From NCBI RefSeq assembly GCF_011044495.1, contig NZ_CP049143.1, forward strand, positions 620,001-684,000: DNA of 64,000 nucleotides. The letters are read 5' to 3'. Each line of letters begins with the position of its first letter. The stretch's first letter is position 1. The notes beneath the pieces are model-generated. The model made no database searches. It saw only the letters and a program-made list of their open reading frames with translations, and was not told where the DNA came from. Made by a program: the position numbers and the translations under genes. The stretch comes from Roseimicrobium sp. ORNL1. Lineage in GTDB: Bacteria > Verrucomicrobiota > Verrucomicrobiia > Verrucomicrobiales > Verrucomicrobiaceae. Positions 23,511 to 34,323 of this stretch are shown one piece after another.

Positions 23511-24482
23511 TCACCTCCCACTCCGCGGATCCAGCGCATCACGCAGGCCATCACCGAGGAAGTTCAGGGCGAGAAGGGTGAGGGCAAAAAAGAGACCGGG
23601 AAAAGTCAACAGCCACCAGGCATTCTCGATCTGTGTGGATCCGTCATTGATCAACACACCCCAAGAAGCGGCAGGTGGTTGAATGCCCAAGCCGAGGAAA
23701 CTCAGGGTGGCTTCCAGCAGCATGACGCCGGGAACAGTCAGGCTGGCGTAAATGATGACCGGGCCAATCACATTCGGCAAAAGGTGACGACCCAGGATGC
23801 TCCAACCGCGGGCACCGAAAGCGCGTGCGGCGGTGATGAACTCCTGCTTTCGCAAAGCCAGTGTCTGTCCACGCACTACGCGTGCCATGGTGAGCCATTC
23901 CACCGCACCGATGGCCGCAAACAGGATGATGAAGCTGGCATTGAACCCAATGTCTTCCAACGCCCCCTTTACCCCGGGAATGACTCCGAGCCAATTGAGC
24001 ACCTTTGCGGTGAAATGCTCGACGGCCTCGTTCTTTCCCAAGACGGCATTGAGCAGGATGACGAATACGATGAAGGGAAACGCATACAGGATATCCACGA
24101 TGCGCATCATGAAGGCATCGAGCCGGCCACCCACCAGGCCTGAGACCAGTCCGTAGGTAACACCGATCACTGCGGCGACCGCTGTGGCCACCAGCCCCAC
24201 GAGTAGCGAGACCCGACCGCCATACATCACTCGAGTAGCCACATCACGCCCCAGAGAGTCTGTCCCCATCCAATGTTGCGCGGAAGGGGGCGAAGCTTGC
24301 TTCTGCAAATCCTGATCCGACTGCTTGTAGGGAGACCGCATGGGGCCAAAGACGCAGACTGCCCCCAGGATAATCAGAAAAATGAACCCGCCTACCGCGA
24401 GCACATTGTGCGTAAGGCGTCGGAAAGCGAGGCGCCACGGCGACTCACCTGCGATGGGTGCGATTGGAGAAACGGCACTCAT
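23511..24482 (-). CDS. oligopeptide/dipeptide ABC transporter permease, DppC/OppC type
   Basis: This is an inner-membrane permease of a peptide-type ABC importer. The 323-residue protein has an N-terminal helix, the family segment WMGTDSLGRDVATRVMYGGR, and the EAA coupling loop in EFITAARAFGARGWSILGRH. The C-terminal LSFLGLGIQPPAASWGVLI motif is typical of OppC/DppC. A longer loop near residues 160-190 separates two transmembrane helices. The start is 6 bases after the DppB-type gene. No ATPase gene follows. Confidence 0.93.
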   Translation of the reverse strand: MSAVSPIAPIAGESPWRLAFRRLTHNVLAVGGFIFLIILGAVCVFGPMRSPYKQSDQDLQKQASPPSAQHWMGTDSLGRDVATRVMYGGRVSLLVGLVATAVAAVIGVTYGLVSGLVGGRLDAFMMRIVDILYAFPFIVFVILLNAVLGKNEAVEHFTAKVLNWLGVIPGVKGALEDIGFNASFIILFAAIGAVEWLTMARVVRGQTLALRKQEFITAARAFGARGWSILGRHLLPNVIGPVIIYASLTVPGVMLLEATLSFLGLGIQPPAASWGVLINDGSTQIENAWWLLTFPGLFFALTLLALNFLGDGLRDALDPRSGR

Positions 24483-24488
24483 GTCACG

Positions 24489-25409
24489 TCACGTCTTGAG
24501 GCCAATCTTGGGGTTCACCGCAGCCTGGAGCAGGTCCACGAGGATGTTGAACACGACCACCAGCACCGCGAAAAAGAGCGTGATGCCCATGGCGAGATTG
24601 TGATCATTCTCGAAAGCCGAGTTCACGAAGTGCTGCCCGAGACCGGGAATCTGGAAGACTGTCTCAATGACGAAGGATCCCGTAAGCAAACCAGCCACCG
24701 CAGGGCCGAGGTAATTCAGCACAGGAAGGCAGGCCAGCTTCATGGCGTGCCGCACCACCACGCCGCGCTCATCCACTCCCTTGGCCCGAGCGGTGCGGAT
24801 GAAGTCCTGCACCAGGGTCTCCCGCAGTCCTCCACGCGTCAGACGCGCAATGGGGCCACTGTAGATGAAGCCCAGTGTCAACGAAGGCAGGACCCAATCA
24901 CCCGGGTCCATCCAGCCTGATACATTAAACCAGCCCAGCCAGAGTCCAAAAATCAGCGCGACGATGGGCCCCAGGACCAAGCTTGGCAGGCAGACACCCA
25001 GAGTGGCGAGGAACGTAGCCGTCCGATCCTGCCACGTGTGTGGCTTCAGTGCCGCGATGGCTCCCAGGGGAATTCCCAGAAGCAACGCGATCAGAAGCGA
25101 GGGAACGGCAATGGCCAGCGACACTGGAAACGCCTGCACAATGATCTCACCGACACCCCGCCCCGGCTTCTTCATGCAGTTGGGAGGGTTCAAGGTGGCG
25201 TAGTGCGTGAAGACACGCCAAAGCTGTTCGTCCCACCTCTTGTTGAATCCAAAGTATTCCTCAAAGCGGGCCCGTTGCTCCGGCGGAATCTCCCTTTCAT
25301 TGTTGAATGGGCTGCTTGGCGAAAGCTTCTGCAGGAAAAACGTGATCACCAGCACCGCCAGCACCACAACGATGCCCTGAAGAATGCGGCTGGCGAGGAA
25401 TTGAACCAT
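24489..25409 (-). CDS. oligopeptide/dipeptide ABC transporter permease, DppB/OppB type
   Basis: This is the partner permease of the preceding entry. The 306-residue protein begins with MVQFLASRILQGIVVVLAVL, the first membrane helix. It carries the EAA-type loop in DFIRTARAKGVDERGVVVRH and ends with the family segment FNILVDLLQAAVNPKIG. Length and motifs are those of ordinary OppB/DppB proteins, in contrast with the enlarged permease of the divergent operon. It follows the binding-protein gene by 27 bases. Confidence 0.94.
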   Translation of the reverse strand: MVQFLASRILQGIVVVLAVLVITFFLQKLSPSSPFNNEREIPPEQRARFEEYFGFNKRWDEQLWRVFTHYATLNPPNCMKKPGRGVGEIIVQAFPVSLAIAVPSLLIALLLGIPLGAIAALKPHTWQDRTATFLATLGVCLPSLVLGPIVALIFGLWLGWFNVSGWMDPGDWVLPSLTLGFIYSGPIARLTRGGLRETLVQDFIRTARAKGVDERGVVVRHAMKLACLPVLNYLGPAVAGLLTGSFVIETVFQIPGLGQHFVNSAFENDHNLAMGITLFFAVLVVVFNILVDLLQAAVNPKIGLKT

Positions 25410-25436
25410 GAGGCGCTTCGTTTTGTTTTCCTTGAA

Positions 25437-27071
25437 TCAGGGGGCAAGTTCAAGCGCCTTGTAAGAACGATGTTCGAGGACGCTGGGTTTCCAACCCTTC
25501 ACCTCCGGTCGCATCAGGTAGCTGTGCACATACCAGTAAATGGGAATGATGGGGAGATCCTCAAGCAACAGGGCCTCTGCCTGCCCCAGCAGTTCGAGGC
25601 GCTTTTTCGCATCGCCTTCTACCGAGGACTTCGCCAGCAACTCGTCATAGGCAGGATTGCTCCATCCCGTCTCGTTGTTGCCGTCGCCTGTCTTCCAGAT
25701 GCTGAGGAACGTGTACGGATCAGGGTAGTCTCCCACCCAGCCGGCGCGGCACACAGAATAGTCCAACCGGCGTTGTGATTCGAGATAGACGCCCCAGTCT
25801 TGATTGTGAATGCCCACCGGAATGTTCAGGTGCTTCTTCCACATTTCCTGGATGGCTTCTGCGATGGTGCGATGGCCTTCGCTGGTATTGATGAGGATGT
25901 CGAACTTGGGGAAGCCCTTGCCGTCTGGAAAGCCAGCCTCTGCCAGCAAGCGACGGGCTTCCTCCGGATCAAACTTCAACACCTGTGGCGCATTCGTGTA
26001 GCCGAGGTATTCCGGGTGCGGGGTCATACCCACGGCAGGCTTCTGTCCGCCCCTGAGTACATTCTTGATCAAACTCTCGCGATCCACCGCGAGTGCCAGT
26101 GCGCGCCGCACGCGCTTGTCGTTGAGCGGCGGCTTGGTGGTGTTGATCCGGTAGAAATAGACGCTCAGCAGCGGATCCTCATGAAATACATCCTGGTGAT
26201 TTTTGCGGTAGTCCGGAATCTGCGGCAGCGGCATGGTCATGGTGGCATGCAACTGCCCGTCACGAAACGCACGCTCCTCCGTGGCATCACTCTTGATGGG
26301 CAGGAAGACAATTTCGTTCAGCTTCACCGCGCCCGCGTCCCAATAGTACGGGTTCCGTTCCACCGTGGTGGAATGGGTGAAGCGCCATTCCTTGAGACGG
26401 AAGGGGCCGTTGCCCACCATGTTCCCCGCGCGGGTCCAGCGCGATTCGCGATCTGTCATGCTGCCAAACTTCTCAACCACATGCCGTGGGACAGGGAACC
26501 ACGAATAGTGCTTCATCATTCCCAGCACATAGGGCATGGGACCCGTGAGCGTGAGCTCGAGTGTGTGGTCGTCCTTCGCCTTGATCCCCACTTCCGAGAA
26601 ATCCTTGATTTTTCCGGCATTAAACTCCTCCGCATTCTTCAGCGGAAAGAGCATGGACGCATACTGGGCTATCAACTCAGGAGTGAGCATCCGCTGGTAA
26701 GACCACACGAAATCATGGGCGGTGAGTGGAGTTCCATCGCTCCACTTGGCCTCCGGCCGGAGGTGGAAGGTCCAGTGGATGAAATCTGTGGTTTCCCAGC
26801 TCGAAGCCACTCCGGGAGCGTTGGCATCAGGGTTGTTTGGGTCAGGAGCGACGAGGCCCTCAAAGAGGGCGGAGAAGATCATGTGCTCAGGCTGACCCGT
26901 GGCCAGGTGGGGATCGAGCGTGCCGACCTCTGACCCATTGCCAAGAATAAGACGCTGCTCACGCGCCGCCGCAATGACGCGAGGTGGCCGGTTGGTGCGC
27001 CACTCATGGAAGGCGTACACTCCCGTGACCAGGAACACCAGAACGGCGAGGCGGATAAGCCAGGATTTCAT
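25437..27071 (-). CDS. peptide ABC transporter substrate-binding protein (family 5, OppA-like)
   Basis: This periplasmic binding protein captures oligopeptides or related ligands for the two permeases encoded downstream. From the ATG at 27071 it has 544 residues and starts MKSWLIRLAVLVFLVTGVYA, a signal peptide or anchor. Family 5 features include SEVGTLDPHLATGQPEHMIF near the mature N-terminus and RPEAKWSDGTPLTAHDFVWS. An in-frame start five codons upstream (27086) cannot be excluded. It is the first gene of a three-gene minus-strand operon with no ATPase. Confidence 0.92.
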   Translation of the reverse strand: MKSWLIRLAVLVFLVTGVYAFHEWRTNRPPRVIAAAREQRLILGNGSEVGTLDPHLATGQPEHMIFSALFEGLVAPDPNNPDANAPGVASSWETTDFIHWTFHLRPEAKWSDGTPLTAHDFVWSYQRMLTPELIAQYASMLFPLKNAEEFNAGKIKDFSEVGIKAKDDHTLELTLTGPMPYVLGMMKHYSWFPVPRHVVEKFGSMTDRESRWTRAGNMVGNGPFRLKEWRFTHSTTVERNPYYWDAGAVKLNEIVFLPIKSDATEERAFRDGQLHATMTMPLPQIPDYRKNHQDVFHEDPLLSVYFYRINTTKPPLNDKRVRRALALAVDRESLIKNVLRGGQKPAVGMTPHPEYLGYTNAPQVLKFDPEEARRLLAEAGFPDGKGFPKFDILINTSEGHRTIAEAIQEMWKKHLNIPVGIHNQDWGVYLESQRRLDYSVCRAGWVGDYPDPYTFLSIWKTGDGNNETGWSNPAYDELLAKSSVEGDAKKRLELLGQAEALLLEDLPIIPIYWYVHSYLMRPEVKGWKPSVLEHRSYKALELAP

Positions 27072-27405
27072 GGTGGAAACAGTCATTAGGGGCAGGGCAG
27101 CGTTCAAATAATCATGAGCAATTGGGCCGCGGTGGGGTCGAAGTACGGTGGCGCATGATGCTAAAAGCGTACCGGAGTCCGGAGCAATCATCTTTTCTCG
27201 CAGAAAGCGCTTCTTTGAGCGTAAATTTCAACTTCATGCGTAGATGATGATTGGTAAGTGTGCACCCGGCCCCTGCGGCGGCGGTTGACTTCCGGGTCGG
27301 AGTCGCCAAAGCCCTTGTGCCCACGCGCCTGCCGATCCAAGCTTTGCCCGTGACTCTGAACTTGCCTGCTTAGACCTGAACTGATCCCGTTTTGCCAGCC
27401 TGCCC
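27072..27405. other. divergent intergenic region between two peptide-transporter operons
   Basis: This 334-base region separates the minus-strand and plus-strand transporter operons and must hold their promoters. A TTGACT hexamer occurs at 27285-27290, but no good -10 sits 16-18 bases downstream. No regulator gene, riboswitch or strong inverted repeat was recognised. Confidence 0.5.
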
Positions 27406-28923
27406 ATGAGGGACTATTTCATTCGCCGCTTCCTATTGATGATTCCGACGCTGGTCGGAGCGACGATGATCGTCTACTTCATCATCCGCATGGCGCCGGG
27501 CGGCCCGGTCGAGGCCATGATGCGACAGCAGCAGGCGCTCAATGCCCAGCGCAGCATGAAGGACCCGGGAGGCAGCCTGAGTGAGGAGCAAAAGGACCAG
27601 CTCCTGATGCACTTCAAACTCGATAAGCCGTACCTCATTGGTTACCTCATGTGGCTCGGAGCTCTACCGAGTGAAGAGCAATATCAAATGATTCCCCTGG
27701 AGGGCGTGCCCAAAAGCGTCCCGGTGAAGCTGACGGTGGCAGAGCTCGACAAAGGTGGGACCCCCACAGGCAAGATGGTGGAAGTCGAGGCCACGGCTCA
27801 TACGGATGGAAGTGTGGTAGGTGCCAACGGCCAGGCAATCCCCACGTGGCGGGCGACCCCGGACTGGGACAATGACCGGATGATCGTGTCCCGAGCTGGA
27901 TGGTCTGGTTGGTTTAGCTCCCTATTCAATGCATCACAGCGCAGCCAGAAGGTGGAGATGAAGAGGGTGGAGCAGAAGGTGGAAGCGAACCTACGCCGGC
28001 TGCTGCCGAAGAAGCAATGGACCCCCACCAACGCTTATGAAGTGGTGAAGGCCACGGTGAGCACGGATGGCAGCATCGTGGGAGCGGACAGGAAAAAAAT
28101 CGACGGATGGAGAGCTCGCACTGACTGGAACAAGGGGCGCATCGTGGCCTACAGGCCGGACTTTGAAGGCGTGCTGCAGGGAACTTTTTACGACTCCCTC
28201 CGGTACAATGAACCTGTGGTGAACATGATGGCCGCGCGCATGCCGGTGTCCCTTTTCTACGGCCTGATTTCGACCATCATCACCTATGTCATCTGCCTTC
28301 CGCTCGGGATCTTGAAGGCCATTAGACATCGGACCGTTCTCGACAACACTACGTCCCTCCTGATTTTTGCCGGATACGCGGTGCCGGCCTTCGTACTGGG
28401 CAGTGTCCTGGCCGTGTTCCTCGCGGCAAGGTTCGGCTGGTTCCCGACATCAGGGTTTGTCAGTGAGAACTTCGAGGATCTTTCCATCGGAGGGAAGGCG
28501 TGGGACCTGATCCATCACGGTACCCTTCCGATGATTTGCTACCTCATCGGAAACTTCGCGTTCCTCACGATGCTCATGAAAAACAGCCTGCTGGACAACC
28601 TCGCGGCTGATTACGTGAGGACGGCCATTGCCAAGGGCTCCGGCTTCAAGACAGCCGTCTTCCGCCATGCGCTGAGGAATTCGCTCATTCCCATCATGAC
28701 CACCCTGGGAGGCATCGTGGGTGTGTTCGTCACCGGCTCGATTTTGATTGAGCGCATTTTTGATATCAATGGCTTCGGCATGCTGAGCTATCAGGCGATT
28801 CTGGACCGCGACATGTTCCTGATGATGGGAATTCTCACGGTGAATGTGTTCCTCATCATGCTGGGGAATATCCTCTCTGACTACTTCGTGGCCCTGATGG
28901 ATCCACGCATCCGCTTTGACTAG
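27406..28923 (+). CDS. YejB-like ABC transporter permease with a duplicated soluble insertion
   Basis: This is an inner-membrane permease of a YejABEF-type importer (microcin C/oligopeptide). The N-terminus MRDYFIRRFLLMIPTLVGAT and the C-terminal half are typical, including FYDSLRYNEPVVNMM, the coupling loop DYVRTAIAKGSGFKTAVFRH and the end YFVALMDPRIRFD. At 505 residues it is far longer than E. coli YejB (about 364). The excess lies between helix 1 and helix 2. It contains two related copies (residues about 124-171 and 212-254) with the pattern TDGS[VI]VGA...W[RA].[TR].DW[DN].[DG]R. The insertion is predicted to be periplasmic; its role is unknown. Confidence 0.88.
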   Translation: MRDYFIRRFLLMIPTLVGATMIVYFIIRMAPGGPVEAMMRQQQALNAQRSMKDPGGSLSEEQKDQLLMHFKLDKPYLIGYLMWLGALPSEEQYQMIPLEGVPKSVPVKLTVAELDKGGTPTGKMVEVEATAHTDGSVVGANGQAIPTWRATPDWDNDRMIVSRAGWSGWFSSLFNASQRSQKVEMKRVEQKVEANLRRLLPKKQWTPTNAYEVVKATVSTDGSIVGADRKKIDGWRARTDWNKGRIVAYRPDFEGVLQGTFYDSLRYNEPVVNMMAARMPVSLFYGLISTIITYVICLPLGILKAIRHRTVLDNTTSLLIFAGYAVPAFVLGSVLAVFLAARFGWFPTSGFVSENFEDLSIGGKAWDLIHHGTLPMICYLIGNFAFLTMLMKNSLLDNLAADYVRTAIAKGSGFKTAVFRHALRNSLIPIMTTLGGIVGVFVTGSILIERIFDINGFGMLSYQAILDRDMFLMMGILTVNVFLIMLGNILSDYFVALMDPRIRFD

Positions 28924-28926
28924 GAG

Positions 28927-30444
28927 ATGTCCCCGAGAAATTTTGGCCTGCTTCTGACCCTGTATGCAGCCCTCGCGGGAGTGCTCCGCGGGCTGGGACT
29001 GAATGTGCCTGTGTTCAAAGTGCCCTTCTTGGGTGGTGAGACCGCCGGGTGGATCTTGAGTGTCCTGTTCTTTTTGGTCGGCCTGTGGTTGCTGATTTCA
29101 GGCTCCAGGGATTGGCAGTTGAGCCCCCTTACGCTCAAGCAAATTCGCCGGTTCCGCTCCATCAAGCAGGGCTATTGGTCCTTCCTGATCCTGCTAGCGC
29201 TGACGGGCGTGGCAATGCTGGACAACCTCCTCGTGGGCAGGCGTGCGCTCGCTGTGAAGTATGAAGGCCAGCTCTACCTCCCCTTCATCCAGGACGGCAT
29301 CATTCCGGGCAGCAAGTTCGGCCTCGGCTATGAGGCGGAAACTGACTATCGCGAGCTGCGCAAACTTTTCCAAAAGGAGAACAAGGGCAACTGGGTCGTG
29401 CTTCCTTTGATTCCCTTCGCTCCCAGCCAGGATTCGCCCGATGTCATCGAAGTGCTGGAGAAGCGCGGAGATGGAAAGTACTACCGCCAAGGCATCGACG
29501 AGCCTTTCAGCGGACGCGCCTATACCTCCTTCAAAGAGAAGCCCACCCAGAAGCGCCGCGAGTACACGCTCCGCTATGGAGTCTTCCAAGGCGAGATGCG
29601 CGGATGGGACGCGAAGGGGGAGCAGAACGAGCGCGGCAAATATCAAGACGGCAAGCGCACGACATACACCGACTACCAAAACGGTGCAGGAGAGGCACTG
29701 GAGACCCAGGCGAGCCCTGACCTGCAGGCGCAGATCTTCCCACCAGCTGCCCCTTCATGGCACAATGGCCACTTCCTCGGCACGAGCTCCTCTGGGGGTG
29801 ACATCCTGGCCACGCTATTCGGTGGATGGCAGCAGGCTCTTCTCGCCTCTGTGCTGTACGTCACGTTTGTCTTTGTAGCGGGCGTGGTGGTGGGGGGTGT
29901 CTCGGGATACTTCGGCGGGCTGACGGACTTGCTCGGCCAGCGCATCCTGGAAATCTGGGCCGCACTGCCATTCCTCTTTGTGGTGATGATCGTGAGTTCA
30001 CTCATCGAGCCGCGGTTGCTCATTCTCGTGGGCATCATCGCCTTCTTCGGGTGGAAGGGCGTCGCCAGCTACATCCGTACGGAAACCTTGAGGGAAAAGG
30101 CGAGGGACTACGTGGCCGCAGCGAAACTCACTGGCGCCAGCACGGGGCGCATCCTCTTCAAGCATGTGCTGCCAAATACGATCTCTGTGCTGGTGACGCT
30201 GGCTCCGTTTGAAGTGACGGGCATCATCACCTCGCTGGCGGCGCTGGACTTCCTTGGCTTCGGTCTGCCGCCGGATGAGCCCAGTTGGGGACGTCTGCTC
30301 CAGGAAGGCACGGAGAATTTCAACTACCCATGGATTGTCGCTTCCGCCTTCGCGGCGATGGTCATCGTGCTGGTGCTCGTCACGTTTGTCGGGGAAGCGA
30401 TCCGTGAGGCCTTTGATCCCAAGAAATTCACGACGTACCGCTGA
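28927..30444 (+). CDS. YejE-like ABC transporter permease with N-terminal extension and MORN/YwqK-like insertion
   Basis: This is the second permease of the Yej-like system. YejE features include IKQGYWSFLILLALTGVAML, ALAVKYEGQLYLPF, HFLGTSSSGGDILATLFGGW, the coupling loop DYVAAAKLTGASTGRILFKH and the end FVGEAIREAFDPKKF. The 505-residue chain has two additions. An N-terminal block (residues 1-60) has two extra hydrophobic helices. A hydrophilic insertion at about 169-262 has glycine/tyrosine-rich repeats such as YYRQGIDEPFSGRAYTSF and GVFQGEMRGWDAKG, resembling MORN/YwqK repeats. It starts 3 bases after the YejB-like gene. Confidence 0.87.
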   Translation: MSPRNFGLLLTLYAALAGVLRGLGLNVPVFKVPFLGGETAGWILSVLFFLVGLWLLISGSRDWQLSPLTLKQIRRFRSIKQGYWSFLILLALTGVAMLDNLLVGRRALAVKYEGQLYLPFIQDGIIPGSKFGLGYEAETDYRELRKLFQKENKGNWVVLPLIPFAPSQDSPDVIEVLEKRGDGKYYRQGIDEPFSGRAYTSFKEKPTQKRREYTLRYGVFQGEMRGWDAKGEQNERGKYQDGKRTTYTDYQNGAGEALETQASPDLQAQIFPPAAPSWHNGHFLGTSSSGGDILATLFGGWQQALLASVLYVTFVFVAGVVVGGVSGYFGGLTDLLGQRILEIWAALPFLFVVMIVSSLIEPRLLILVGIIAFFGWKGVASYIRTETLREKARDYVAAAKLTGASTGRILFKHVLPNTISVLVTLAPFEVTGIITSLAALDFLGFGLPPDEPSWGRLLQEGTENFNYPWIVASAFAAMVIVLVLVTFVGEAIREAFDPKKFTTYR

Positions 30445-32372
30445 TGAACGCGCGCTTTCTTCACCTCCTGTATGCCGCGGCCATCACCGCATGGATGGCG
30501 GTATCCATGCCCGCTTCGGCCGCAGACGATCGGTTTCCTCCTTACGACAACACTTCGGAGGTGCAGGCCTTCTGGAAATCGCAGCCGGAGTTCTTCCAGT
30601 GGAAGACACCTGAGGATCTGCCCAAGGATCTGAAATGGGAAAATGGTGGGGACAACCTTCCTGAAATGGGCGACCCTGCTGCCAAGAAGGGCGGCACCTT
30701 CCACGACATGGTGGACACCTTTCCCGCCACGCTGCGCAACATTGGCCCCGATGCCAACAACTCCTTCCGCAGCGAGCACCATGACAACATCCTGATCACG
30801 CTGGTGCAGCGTCATTTGAACGTGGACGCATGGGTGCCAGCCCTGGCAGATCAATGGGCCATTTCGCCGGACAGGAAGACTGTTTACTACAAGCTCGATC
30901 CGAAGGCCACCTACTCAGACGGCAAACCAGTGCGGGTGGAGGATTTCTTCATGACGTTCTACATCATGCGCAGTCCCCATATTCAGGACCCGTGGTACAA
31001 CGACTTCTACAAAAAGGAATATTCCAATATCACCAAGTATGATGAACACACGCTGTCCATCACCATTCCTGCGGTGAAGCCGGACCCGCTGTGGTTCGCG
31101 GACCTTCCACCCTCGCCCATGGAGTTCTACAAGGAGTTCTCGGAGGACTTCCCCAAGCGCTATCAGTGGCGCAAGACACCCACCACCGGCGCCTACGAAA
31201 TCTACGACGACGATGTGAAGAAGGGGCGCTCCATCACACTGACGCGCGTGAAGGACTGGTGGGCGAAGGACAAGAAGCATTTCCGCTATCGCTTCAATCC
31301 GGACTACATCCAGTACACCGTCGTCGGCAGCCTGGACAAGGCGTTCGAAATCTTCCGTCAGGGGAAGCTCGACTGGTTCGCGATGGGTCTGCCTCGCTAT
31401 TGGTATGACAAGTCCGAGATTCCGGAGGTGTACAAGGGATACATTGAGCGGCAGATCTTCTTCAATGACTATCCGCGCATCTCTCGCGGCATCTATATCA
31501 ACCAGAGCAAGCCTGAACTGGACAAGCTCGATGTGCGCATTGGCATTGCCCACTCGCTGAACTTCCAGAAGGTCATTGATGTGGACTTTCGCGGTGACTA
31601 CCAGCGGATGAAAAGCACCTTTGCTGGATTTGGGAGATTCACGAATCCCAACGTCCGCCCCAGGGAGTACGATGTGGTCAAGGCACGCGAACACTTTGCC
31701 AAGGCGGGGTACACCAAAGCGGGGCCTGACGGTGTGCTCGTGAATGGCTCAGGTCGCAGGCTGTCGTTCACGTTGTCCATGCCTCAGGGGCCGTTTGTTC
31801 CCATGATGCTCCGCTTGAAGGAAGAAGCGCTCAAGGCAGGCCTGGATATTGTGGTGGAAGCGCAGGATTCCACCCAGCTCTTCAAGAAGCTGGATCAAAA
31901 GAACCACGAAATGTGCCTCGTGGGTTATGGCGCTTCGCTACCCTATCCGCGCTTTTGGGAGAACTATCATAGCGATAATGCGTGGAAGATCGGTCCTGAT
32001 GGCACGAAGAAGATCGTGCCGGACACCAACAACATCACCATGACGGCGGATCCCGTGATGGACCCCATCATCGATCGGCAACGCATCGCGGCCACGGAAG
32101 ATGAGATGCAGGATCTCTCCTGGAAACTCCAGGAAATGGTGGAGGCTTTGAGCGTGTCCATTCCCGCGTGGGAGTCGCCCTCTTACCGCTTCTCCCACTG
32201 GCGCTGGATTCGCTGGCCACACGACGGCAACCTCAAGCGCAGCCAGCTTCCCCTGGATACCATGGTCCACTGGATTGACGAGGACGTGGAAAAAGAAACC
32301 CGCGAGGCCATGCGTGAAGGCAAGTCCTTTGGCGAGGTCATTCGCATCTTCGACCAATTCCGGATTCAATGA
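30444..32372 (+). CDS. YejA-like extracellular solute-binding protein (family 5)
   Basis: This is the periplasmic binding protein of the Yej-like importer. The 642-residue protein starts with a signal peptide ending near MPASAADDR. Family 5/YejA features include [20 protein letters not shown] near residues 75-95 and the ligand-pocket segment [20 protein letters not shown]. The ATG overlaps the stop of the preceding permease by one base, and its own stop overlaps the ATPase start in an ATGA. In E. coli the binding-protein gene comes first; here it is third. Confidence 0.9.
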
Positions 32373-33355
32373 GCAGCGGCGCCTCCATTCTAGAAGTCAG
32401 GAATCTCGTCACCGCGTTCGACACGGACGCGGGACGCGTGGTCGCCGTGGACGGCATCAGCTTCGAAGTGCCGCGTGGAAAGACGCTCGGCATCGTCGGG
32501 GAGTCAGGATGCGGCAAGAGCGTGACGGCCTTTTCCATCACGCGATTGCTGCCCCAGCCCCATGGCAAGATTCTTGAGGGTGACATCCTCTATGAAGACC
32601 GCAATCTTCCCAAGCTCCCCTTGGACGAGATGAAGAAGCTGCGCGGGAAGGAAATCAGCATGATCTTCCAGGAGCCCATGACGGCGCTCAACCCCGTGCA
32701 GACGGTGGGCCGACAGCTGGCGGAAGCGATTCTCCTGCACTCGGACTGCGGCAGGCGTGAGGTGCTGGAGCGTTCGCTGGAACTCATGCGGAAGGTGCGC
32801 ATCCCTTCGCCTGAGGTGCGCCTCGGAGAGTATCCCCACCAGCTCAGCGGTGGCATGCGCCAGCGTGTGATGATCGCCATGGCGCTGATCCACAAGCCGA
32901 AGCTGCTCATCGCGGATGAACCTACCACCGCACTGGATGTGACGGTGCAGGCGCAGATTTTGGAGCTCATCTCGGACCTGCAAAAGGAAATGGGCATGAG
33001 CGTGGTGCTCATCACGCATGACATGGGCGTCATTGCGGAAGTTTGCGATGAGGTCGTGGTGATGTACGCCGGTCGCATCGTGGAGCGCGCTCCGGTGTTC
33101 GAGCTCTTTGCCAATCCGCGTCACGCATACACGCGCGGACTGCTGGCTTCGATTCCCCGCCTGGATGATGTGCCCAAGACCAAGCTGCGCGCCATCCCGG
33201 GAAGTGTGCCGGCGATCAATACGCTGAAGCCCGGCTGCCGCTTCGCGGAGCGCTCTGGGAAGCCGCATGAACACGATCATCTGAACGTGCGCCCGCCCTA
33301 CCACGAAATCTCCCCCGGTCATTGGGTGGAGCATTGCCCCATCTGCGTCTCATGA
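32369..33355 (+). CDS. oligopeptide ABC transporter ATP-binding protein, OppD/DppD type
   Basis: This ATPase powers the Yej-like importer. The 328-residue protein has Walker A GESGCGKS (residues 44-51), signature LSGGMRQR, and Walker [14 protein letters not shown]. The C-terminal oligopeptide extension follows ([20 protein letters not shown]). It overlaps the binding-protein gene by ATGA and the next ATPase by ATGA. E. coli YejF is a single fused ATPase; here the two halves are separate genes. Confidence 0.96.
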
Positions 33356-34323
33356 GTCTGCTGAAGATTGAAAACGTCAAGATGCACTTCCCCGTGCGCG
33401 GGGGTGTGCTGCGCCGCGCCGTGGCGCAGTGCAAGGCCGTCGATGGTGTCAGTCTGGAAGTGGCCAAGGGCGAGACGCTGGGTCTGGTGGGCGAGAGCGG
33501 TTGCGGCAAGACGACGCTGGGCAAGACCATTGTGCGATTGCTGAGTCCCACGGAGGGGCGCATTGAATTCGACGGCACGGACATCTCTCATGCCAGTCAC
33601 CGCTCGCTCCGTCCTGTGAGGCGGAACATGCAGATGATTTTCCAGGATCCGGCGGAGTCGCTCAATCCACGCCTCACGGTGCGGGACATTCTGGAGGAGC
33701 CGTTCATCGTGCAGAAGCTTGGCACACGCGAGGAGCGCCGGCAGTGGGTGATTGATCTTCTGGAAAAGGTGGGCCTGCAGGCGGCGCATGCGGATCGTTT
33801 CCCCTTCGAGTTCTCCGGCGGGCAGCGCCAGCGCATTGGCATTGCCCGTGCCATTGCGCTCAAGCCAAAGCTTGTGGTGTGCGATGAACCCGTGTCCGCG
33901 CTGGACGTCAGCGTGCAGAGCCAGGTGCTGAATCTCATGCTGGATCTGCAGCGTGACCTTGGTCTGAGTTACCTCTTCATCGCACATGGTCTGAGTGTGG
34001 TGAAGCACATGAGTGACCGCGTGGCGGTGATGTACTTGGGGAAGGTGGTCGAGCTTGCGTCGGCGGAGGCGCTTTATCGTAATCCGCGCCATGCCTATAC
34101 GAAGGCCCTTCTGGATGCCATTCCCGAGCCTGATCCGGCCAAGCGTCATCCCCGTCGCTTGTTGAGCGGTGATGTGCCCTCTCCCATCAATCCCCCGGAG
34201 GGCTGCGCCTTCGGTCACCGCATGAAACATCCGCGCTGGAAGGAAAGTGTGGGCATCGACCTCAAGCTGGAAGAGGTTCAGCCCGGTCATTGGGTGCAGA
34301 AGTGCCCCTGCTGCGTGGAGTAG
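33352..34323 (+). CDS. oligopeptide ABC transporter ATP-binding protein, OppF/DppF type
   Basis: This is the second ATPase of the importer. Walker A is GESGCGKT (residues 48-55), the signature is FSGGQRQR, and Walker B is [12 protein letters not shown]. The oligopeptide C-terminal region holds [20 protein letters not shown]. The ATG at 33352 overlaps the OppD-type stop (ATGA), so it is chosen over an in-frame start at 33322. The two ATPases may also serve the divergent operon, which lacks its own. Confidence 0.96.

Follow-up and report, generated by a model that had tools for sequence, protein, structure and literature searches.

The 64,000-nucleotide stretch of Roseimicrobium sp. ORNL1 DNA analysed here (contig NZ_CP049143.1, positions 620,001 to 684,000; hereafter the window) encodes a YejB-like permease of 505 residues (27406..28923, forward strand) with a duplicated insert, raising the question of what a domain present in two copies contributes to a transporter subunit of otherwise known kind. 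Importers of this type decide the entry of peptides, cell-wall fragments and peptide antibiotics, and the original prediction had proposed that the insert might dock the substrate-binding protein or select the substrate. The open reading frame and its Pfam and NCBIfam matches identify the gene product as a six-helix subunit of a type I ABC importer. Its permease core, spanning residues 298-503 (28297..28914, +), matches BPD_transp_1 (PF00528) with an E value of 9.4e-31 and 107.4 bits against a curated cut-off of 26.4. The top-scoring of 13 NCBIfam models is YejB (NF011712), at 227.5 bits, and because this falls short of the model's cut-off of 445 the protein is designated here as YejB-like.

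The downstream genes, all on the forward strand, identify the transport system. The partner permease (28927..30444, 505 aa), assigned through family models, starts 3 bases past the stop of the first gene and in the same frame, and has YejE as its best NCBIfam model (230.7 bits, under the cut-off of 439). It is followed by a YejA-like substrate-binding protein of family 5 (30444..32372, 642 aa; PF00496, E 2.6e-45) and by two ATPase subunits (32369..33355 and 33355..34323; both PF00005) that match, respectively, the first half of E. coli YejF at 47% and its second half at 45%. YejE-, YejA- and YejF-like neighbors thus accompany the permease, with two adjoining ATPase genes, one for each half of YejF, in place of a fused two-domain gene. 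Taken together, these similarities and the paired ATPase genes define the system as a YejABEF-like importer of peptides whose ATPase genes are split, and the same gene order, B-E-A-D-F, occurs in the relatives with enough flanking sequence. Only TAG and GAG part the two permease genes ahead of the ATG (28921-28929), and an in-frame permease pair across a single stop is also seen in 21 of the relatives checked. A divergent oligopeptide set, composed of a binding protein and OppB-like and OppC-like permeases, adjoins the operon on the reverse strand (23511-27191); among the open reading frames scanned between 22000 and 34000, none is an ATPase gene belonging to this set. Several relatives have comparable divergent permeases upstream. 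This set and the Yej-like system may use common ATPases, those encoded at 32369-34323.

The insert contains an internal repeat. The motifs TDGSVVGA (from residue 133) and TDGSIVGA (from residue 220), as well as DWDND (at 153) and DWNKG (at 240), recur at a constant offset of 87 residues, and alignment of the insert against itself (BLOSUM62, gaps 11/1) yields a best score of 124, whereas 1000 shuffles gave a mean of 26.4 and a maximum of 46, so that the two related copies postulated in the original prediction exceed chance similarity. The repeat boundaries it gave, about residues 124-171 and 212-254, delimit the best-conserved part of a longer unit. Comparison with single-copy relatives places the full unit at about residues 87-174 and 175-261, which takes in the entire insert as well as the segment ahead of membrane helix 2. 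Self-alignment and a profile of single-copy modules from the family distinguish the two copies: copy 1 (27664..27927, +) is diverged (17.4 bits) and terminates with the pre-helix-2 segment in degenerate form, and copy 2 (27928..28188, +) is the one nearest to the single module of relatives (84.9 bits). Copy 1 starts like the module of Prosthecobacter sp. VE4 (L031; LPSEE), copy 2 closes in the manner of the native junction, and the copies meet in a degenerate junction. The copies are 32% identical across 80 aligned residues and 39% identical in an ungapped 59-residue core (115-173 against 202-260), where dN is 0.63 and dS is saturated, indicating an old event. Likewise, local alignment of the copies at the DNA level spans only about 24 bases, so the duplication is not recent. 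An EF-hand reading of DWDND and DWNKG was rejected: relatives have no acidic loop at this position, and no EF-hand family matches the window's protein.

Hydropathy analysis locates membrane-like segments at residues 8-31 and 279-306, with the insert in between. The first of these segments is the first membrane helix (27427..27498, +), predicted as a helix from residue 2 to 29 in the structural model. The insert therefore most likely lies on the periplasmic side, upholding the location originally proposed. Residues 32-86 (27499..27663, +), with predicted helices at 34-49, 60-69 and 76-84, separate the first membrane helix from the insert. In a study of E. coli DppB (PMC12136057), the region between helices 1 and 2 is described as a scoop, which connects a short helix to helix 1 and inserts into the DppA cleft; scoop residues 32-62 appear to correspond by position to the stretch that precedes the insert here, which would make this stretch the counterpart of the scoop.

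Both permeases were modeled as one artificial chain, with the stop read as Q and a 100-row alignment of loci, resulting in a mean pLDDT of 75.5 and a pTM of 0.66. Each copy is predicted to form six strands in identical order (89-97, 104-114, 120-132, 136-139, 144-153 and 158-163 in copy 1; 181-184, 191-199, 211-219, 224-226, 236-240 and 245-252 in copy 2), with pLDDT values of about 61-70 over most of copy 1 and 68-74 over most of copy 2, dropping to 43-50 at the junction. Modeled alone with a 56-row alignment, copy 2 is again all beta (pLDDT 76.8, pTM 0.60), and the module is hence predicted to adopt an all-beta fold. The overall arrangement of the two-permease model is sensible, given its match to the fused double permease FbpB (9j4r_A; Z 22.8, rmsd 4.3, 431 residues), and its partner half matches DppC (8z1w_B) with a Z of 28.3. 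The model also contains two additional predicted helices at the N-terminus of the partner (28927-29120; starting at model residues 512 and 545), ahead of the match to DppC from residue 574.

We surveyed the distribution of the insert at three levels. In an alignment of 110 proteins (the window's, one from the same genus, 28 others and 80 loci, of which the wrongly cut row L078 was left uncounted), the insert is absent in 19 (0-1 residue), spans 70-148 residues in 89 and reaches 170 residues in the window. In the insert-free proteins the flanks meet with 0-1 residue, denoting a constant insertion place, and the stretch after the insert measures 251 residues in nearly all aligned proteins. Within the same family, 64 of 68 genomes have a match, the remaining four being only 52-76% complete. 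Sixty of these 64 carry a single module, scored as a match continuous over the profile within 1242-1326 bases, one (the window) is double, and three (G004, G418 and G437) have no insert, indicating that the module is dispensable in those three. A single module, with an extra internal stretch, is present in the one other genome of the genus. In a sample of 387 genomes from the phylum, 190 have a match; besides the window, all 43 matching genomes of the same order are continuous, that is, insert-bearing, as are four of 146 outside the order (G119, G135, G326 and G412), and the remaining out-of-order matches start at profile position 158 at least, among the matches listed. The insertion is thus not universal among YejB homologs, yet a single module is ordinary in the order, and the notion of the insertion as a special feature must be narrowed to its doubling, found in this genome only.

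Trees of the permease core and of the module bear on the descent of the duplication. The core tree comprises 107 rows and unites the window's permease with those of L031 and L003 (100/100), both of which carry a single module, with L003 as the nearest (97/63), and on a small module tree the two copies pair with each other (0.92) beside L031 (0.78). The single-module state of the nearest relatives and the pairing of the copies indicate a tandem duplication on the branch leading to the window. The same-genus locus L017 falls among other rows of the core tree, and the histories of the permease gene and of the genome may therefore differ. The score of copy 1 against the family profile, although well below that of copy 2, exceeds the best of 1000 shuffles (8.4 bits against 17.4), and the two scores, 17.4 and 84.9 bits, indicate that copy 1 is the faster-changing copy.

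The module family is common to the order, with a profile of the Verrucomicrobiaceae set aligning to a profile of the remaining 60 inserts over 59 columns at a probability of 91.5%. Across 153 pairs from 18 family proteins, the C-terminal core has a median identity of 0.73 and the module one of 0.51, and module dN exceeds core dN in 13 of the 14 closest pairs. In the 13 of these pairs where dS is finite, module dN/dS ranges from about 0.04 to 0.34. The module is consequently a protein domain under purifying selection that changes faster than the permease core, as surface domains do. These data bear on a neutral explanation, in which an insertion-tolerant loop would have acquired and retained a folded spacer that has no particular role and the second copy would be a drifting chance duplicate. 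Such an origin would agree with the strong divergence of copy 1, with the three of 64 family genomes that do without the module and with the unrelated-looking, EF-hand-like inserts that occupy the same place in four loci. It is, however, hard to reconcile with single-module dN/dS values well below 1, with retention of the module in 60 of 64 family genomes and with a copy 1 that has kept its open frame, its predicted strand order and its key residues, and we consider it unlikely.

Searches for a known family or fold returned no confident match for the module. Pfam searches of 56 modules hit 18 scattered families, none in more than three modules and with a best E value of 0.0051; comparison of a profile of the modules with PDB sequences gave a best E value of 0.17, to ETS domains; a Foldseek search with the module model against 350,542 chains reached a best E value of 0.64; and a second comparison, by VIA-align, gave Z values of at most 3.3. 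All or nearly all of the Foldseek and VIA-align rows are immunoglobulin-type, with immunoglobulin variable domains as the best, among the matches listed, at values too weak to indicate a common fold. We do not take the absence of a confident match as proof of a new fold. No description of the insert was found among the listed titles and abstract openings of the open PubMed Central literature, and the module and its doubling are, as far as these reach, apparently undescribed.

In four loci (L051, L056, L058 and L070) a different-looking insert of 139 residues (L051:9268-9684, for example) occupies the same place and bears two EF-hand-like loops (e.g. DWDGDGYLQRQE). Profile comparison reveals no clear similarity between this insert and the beta-module (1.6% and 1.3%), and the partner permease of these loci has no extra loop. 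EF-hand models weakly match four of 38 proteins, with a best E value of 0.0097, and these need not be the same four loci.

The EF-hand-like loops do bear on the possibility that the module binds another ligand, be it substrate, peptidoglycan or a regulatory ion, and thereby tunes import. PMC9790009 reports that a YejBEF system imports muropeptides in Agrobacterium, and this report, together with the lack of any match to the AmpG model in the Roseimicrobium genome, could likewise speak for such a role. AmpG scores over the cut-off in none of 24 genomes searched (the window's own and 23 relatives), an absence that would fit muropeptide import as the function. The absence of AnmK, another recycling enzyme, from all 24 of the same genomes does not support it, and leaves the muropeptide idea without genomic support here beyond a borderline match to NagZ in the own genome (207.9 bits against a cut-off of 207). 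Since the window's module, moreover, has neither an EF-hand nor a family match, ligand binding of this kind seems highly improbable.

The YejE-like partner also departs from its shorter homologs, through an extra insertion, some 95 residues long, within the first loop on the periplasmic side (about residues 170-267; 29434..29727, +; edges approximate) that alignment, model and hydropathy delimit and that is predicted to be beta-rich; short YejE proteins have no such insertion. A by-eye likeness of this insertion to MORN_2 repeats receives no backing from Pfam, which yielded no MORN match at E values up to 1 in 32 partners, a search that short repeats can escape; nor did Pfam return any other match for the insertion in the 32 proteins. 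The two insertions tend to occur together: of 105 scored loci, 80 have both, 19 neither, six the B insert only and none the partner insertion only, figures that amount to a pattern and not a test given that the loci are related and include identical or near-identical genomes (for example L016/L034, L025/L048 and L026/L082), which make the counts non-independent. This count leaves out the window (L001), L078 (start wrongly cut) and four loci without a partner gene (L035, L064, L085 and L105). The six B-only loci, comprising L029, L104 and the four with EF-hand-like loops, indicate that the insertions are not inseparable. No insertion in the YejA-like protein of this genome tracks whether the module is present; in relatives that carry the insert, YejA tends to include a stretch of about 37 columns at its N-terminal end, which the window's YejA-like protein does not share.

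To examine how the module diverges relative to the other components, we computed partial correlations of distances across 50 loci, controlling for both cores with their squares. Partial correlations between distance matrices test an association only indirectly and often err on the optimistic side, and the coefficients obtained are to be read in that light. Module divergence correlates with that of the partner insertion (partial r 0.30, p 0.001) and of the binding protein (0.17, p 0.003), with lower values for the scoop region (0.15), the N-terminal helices of the partner (0.11) and its older loop (-0.04). Inclusion of the other segments leaves the partner insertion at 0.30 and the binding protein at 0.21, with the N-terminal helices at -0.03 and the scoop at 0.03; the N-terminal segment of the partner is as variable as its insertion, yet module divergence does not track it. 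In the set that includes the ATPases (28 loci, after 23 were left out for incomplete operons), values are 0.33 for the partner insertion, 0.41 for the partner core, 0.13 (p 0.08) for the binding protein, -0.08 for D and 0.02 for F. Comparison of sequence distances thus weakly favors a tie between the module and the outer face of the complex, in which the binding protein is not singled out.

Docking of the binding protein, as first envisaged, is plausible in that the insert follows the counterpart of the scoop and that module divergence weakly tracks the binding protein in both sets; it is less well served by the stronger association with the partner insertion and, in the smaller set, with the partner core. 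That association is what would be expected if the module served mainly the assembly or stability of the permease pair, packing on the partner insertion without contact to the binding protein and with a duplication that is tolerated or stabilizing. The 80 loci with both insertions, set against none with the partner insertion only, fit such a role, but six loci maintain the module without the partner insertion. Moreover, the position beside the scoop, as deduced from PMC12136057, would make it difficult for the module not to touch the binding protein. A function confined to the permease pair therefore strikes us as somewhat unlikely.

Among the readings considered here, the one that we tentatively favor, based on position, co-occurrence and weak co-divergence, is that the doubled all-beta module and the loop of the partner together build a collar on the periplasmic side, adjacent to the scoop, to serve the binding protein. 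The YejB-type permease of the order would have gained, after the scoop helices and ahead of the short pre-helix-2 segment, a module of about 85 residues with an all-beta fold. The module is single in most relatives, whereas in the lineage of the window an 87-residue stretch, comprising the module and its adjoining segment, was doubled in tandem and in frame, with both copies retained. Located on the outer face of the permease, beside the scoop, the module and the extra loop of the YejE-like partner could build a raised collar round the outer mouth, which would hold or orient the YejA-like binding protein and help to close the outward-facing cavity during peptide handover; a second copy would make the collar longer or provide one more contact. 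The repeat, its location in the chain, its distribution and duplication, the purifying selection on the module and its co-occurrence with the partner insertion are observed, and the all-beta structure is predicted, whereas the periplasmic side, the collar, its contact with the binding protein and an effect on transport are inferred. A broader proposal, which we hold to be doubtful, is that both halves of YejBE in this order grew co-evolving periplasmic domains that constitute a docking collar undescribed for peptide importers, at a loop that acts as an insertion hot spot (with a beta-module in most cases and an EF-hand-like insert in some); in this species, tandem duplication would have extended the collar to two docking arms on one side.

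Comparison with characterized transporters sets these features in context. In E. coli K-12, the YejABEF importer of microcin C and peptides has the gene order A-B-E-F and a fused YejF, unlike the B-E-A-D-F order and two ATPase genes found here. Its YejB (364 aa) resembles the window's permease in the core (41% over 248 residues) and at the N-terminus (47% over 47), and presents no residues opposite the insert of about 170 residues, in agreement with the original prediction that it has no such module. The partner permease is 41% identical to E. coli YejE over 228 residues, and the binding protein 22% identical to YejA over 550 residues (E 3e-19). A parallel is offered by the maltose transporter, where the P2 loop of MalF, likewise a folded periplasmic domain of a permease, is said, in work by Daus et al. 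in 2009, to contact the binding protein throughout the cycle. MalF P2 belongs to a different loop and a different permease family; the module has no confident fold match to a docking domain of this kind among the 350,542 chains or in the VIA-align comparison, and weak or missing matches do not exclude a likeness. Among solved structures, the best sequence match is to E. coli DppB (8z1v and related; E 1.4e-31), an alignment from residue 253 onward that leaves the whole module uncovered, and the passages on the scoop in PMC12136057 describe no beta-module there. Where the solved relatives have a short scoop, this order appears to have added a folded domain next to it, and one species has doubled that domain. 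Among the single-module relatives, the YejB of Prosthecobacter sp. VE4, for example, shares the gene order, the insertion place and a core that is 74% identical over 337 columns, and differs in having one 83-residue module against the two found here. If the domain governs docking, these natural zero-, one- and two-copy proteins would provide a ready series for the study of recognition between permease and binding protein.
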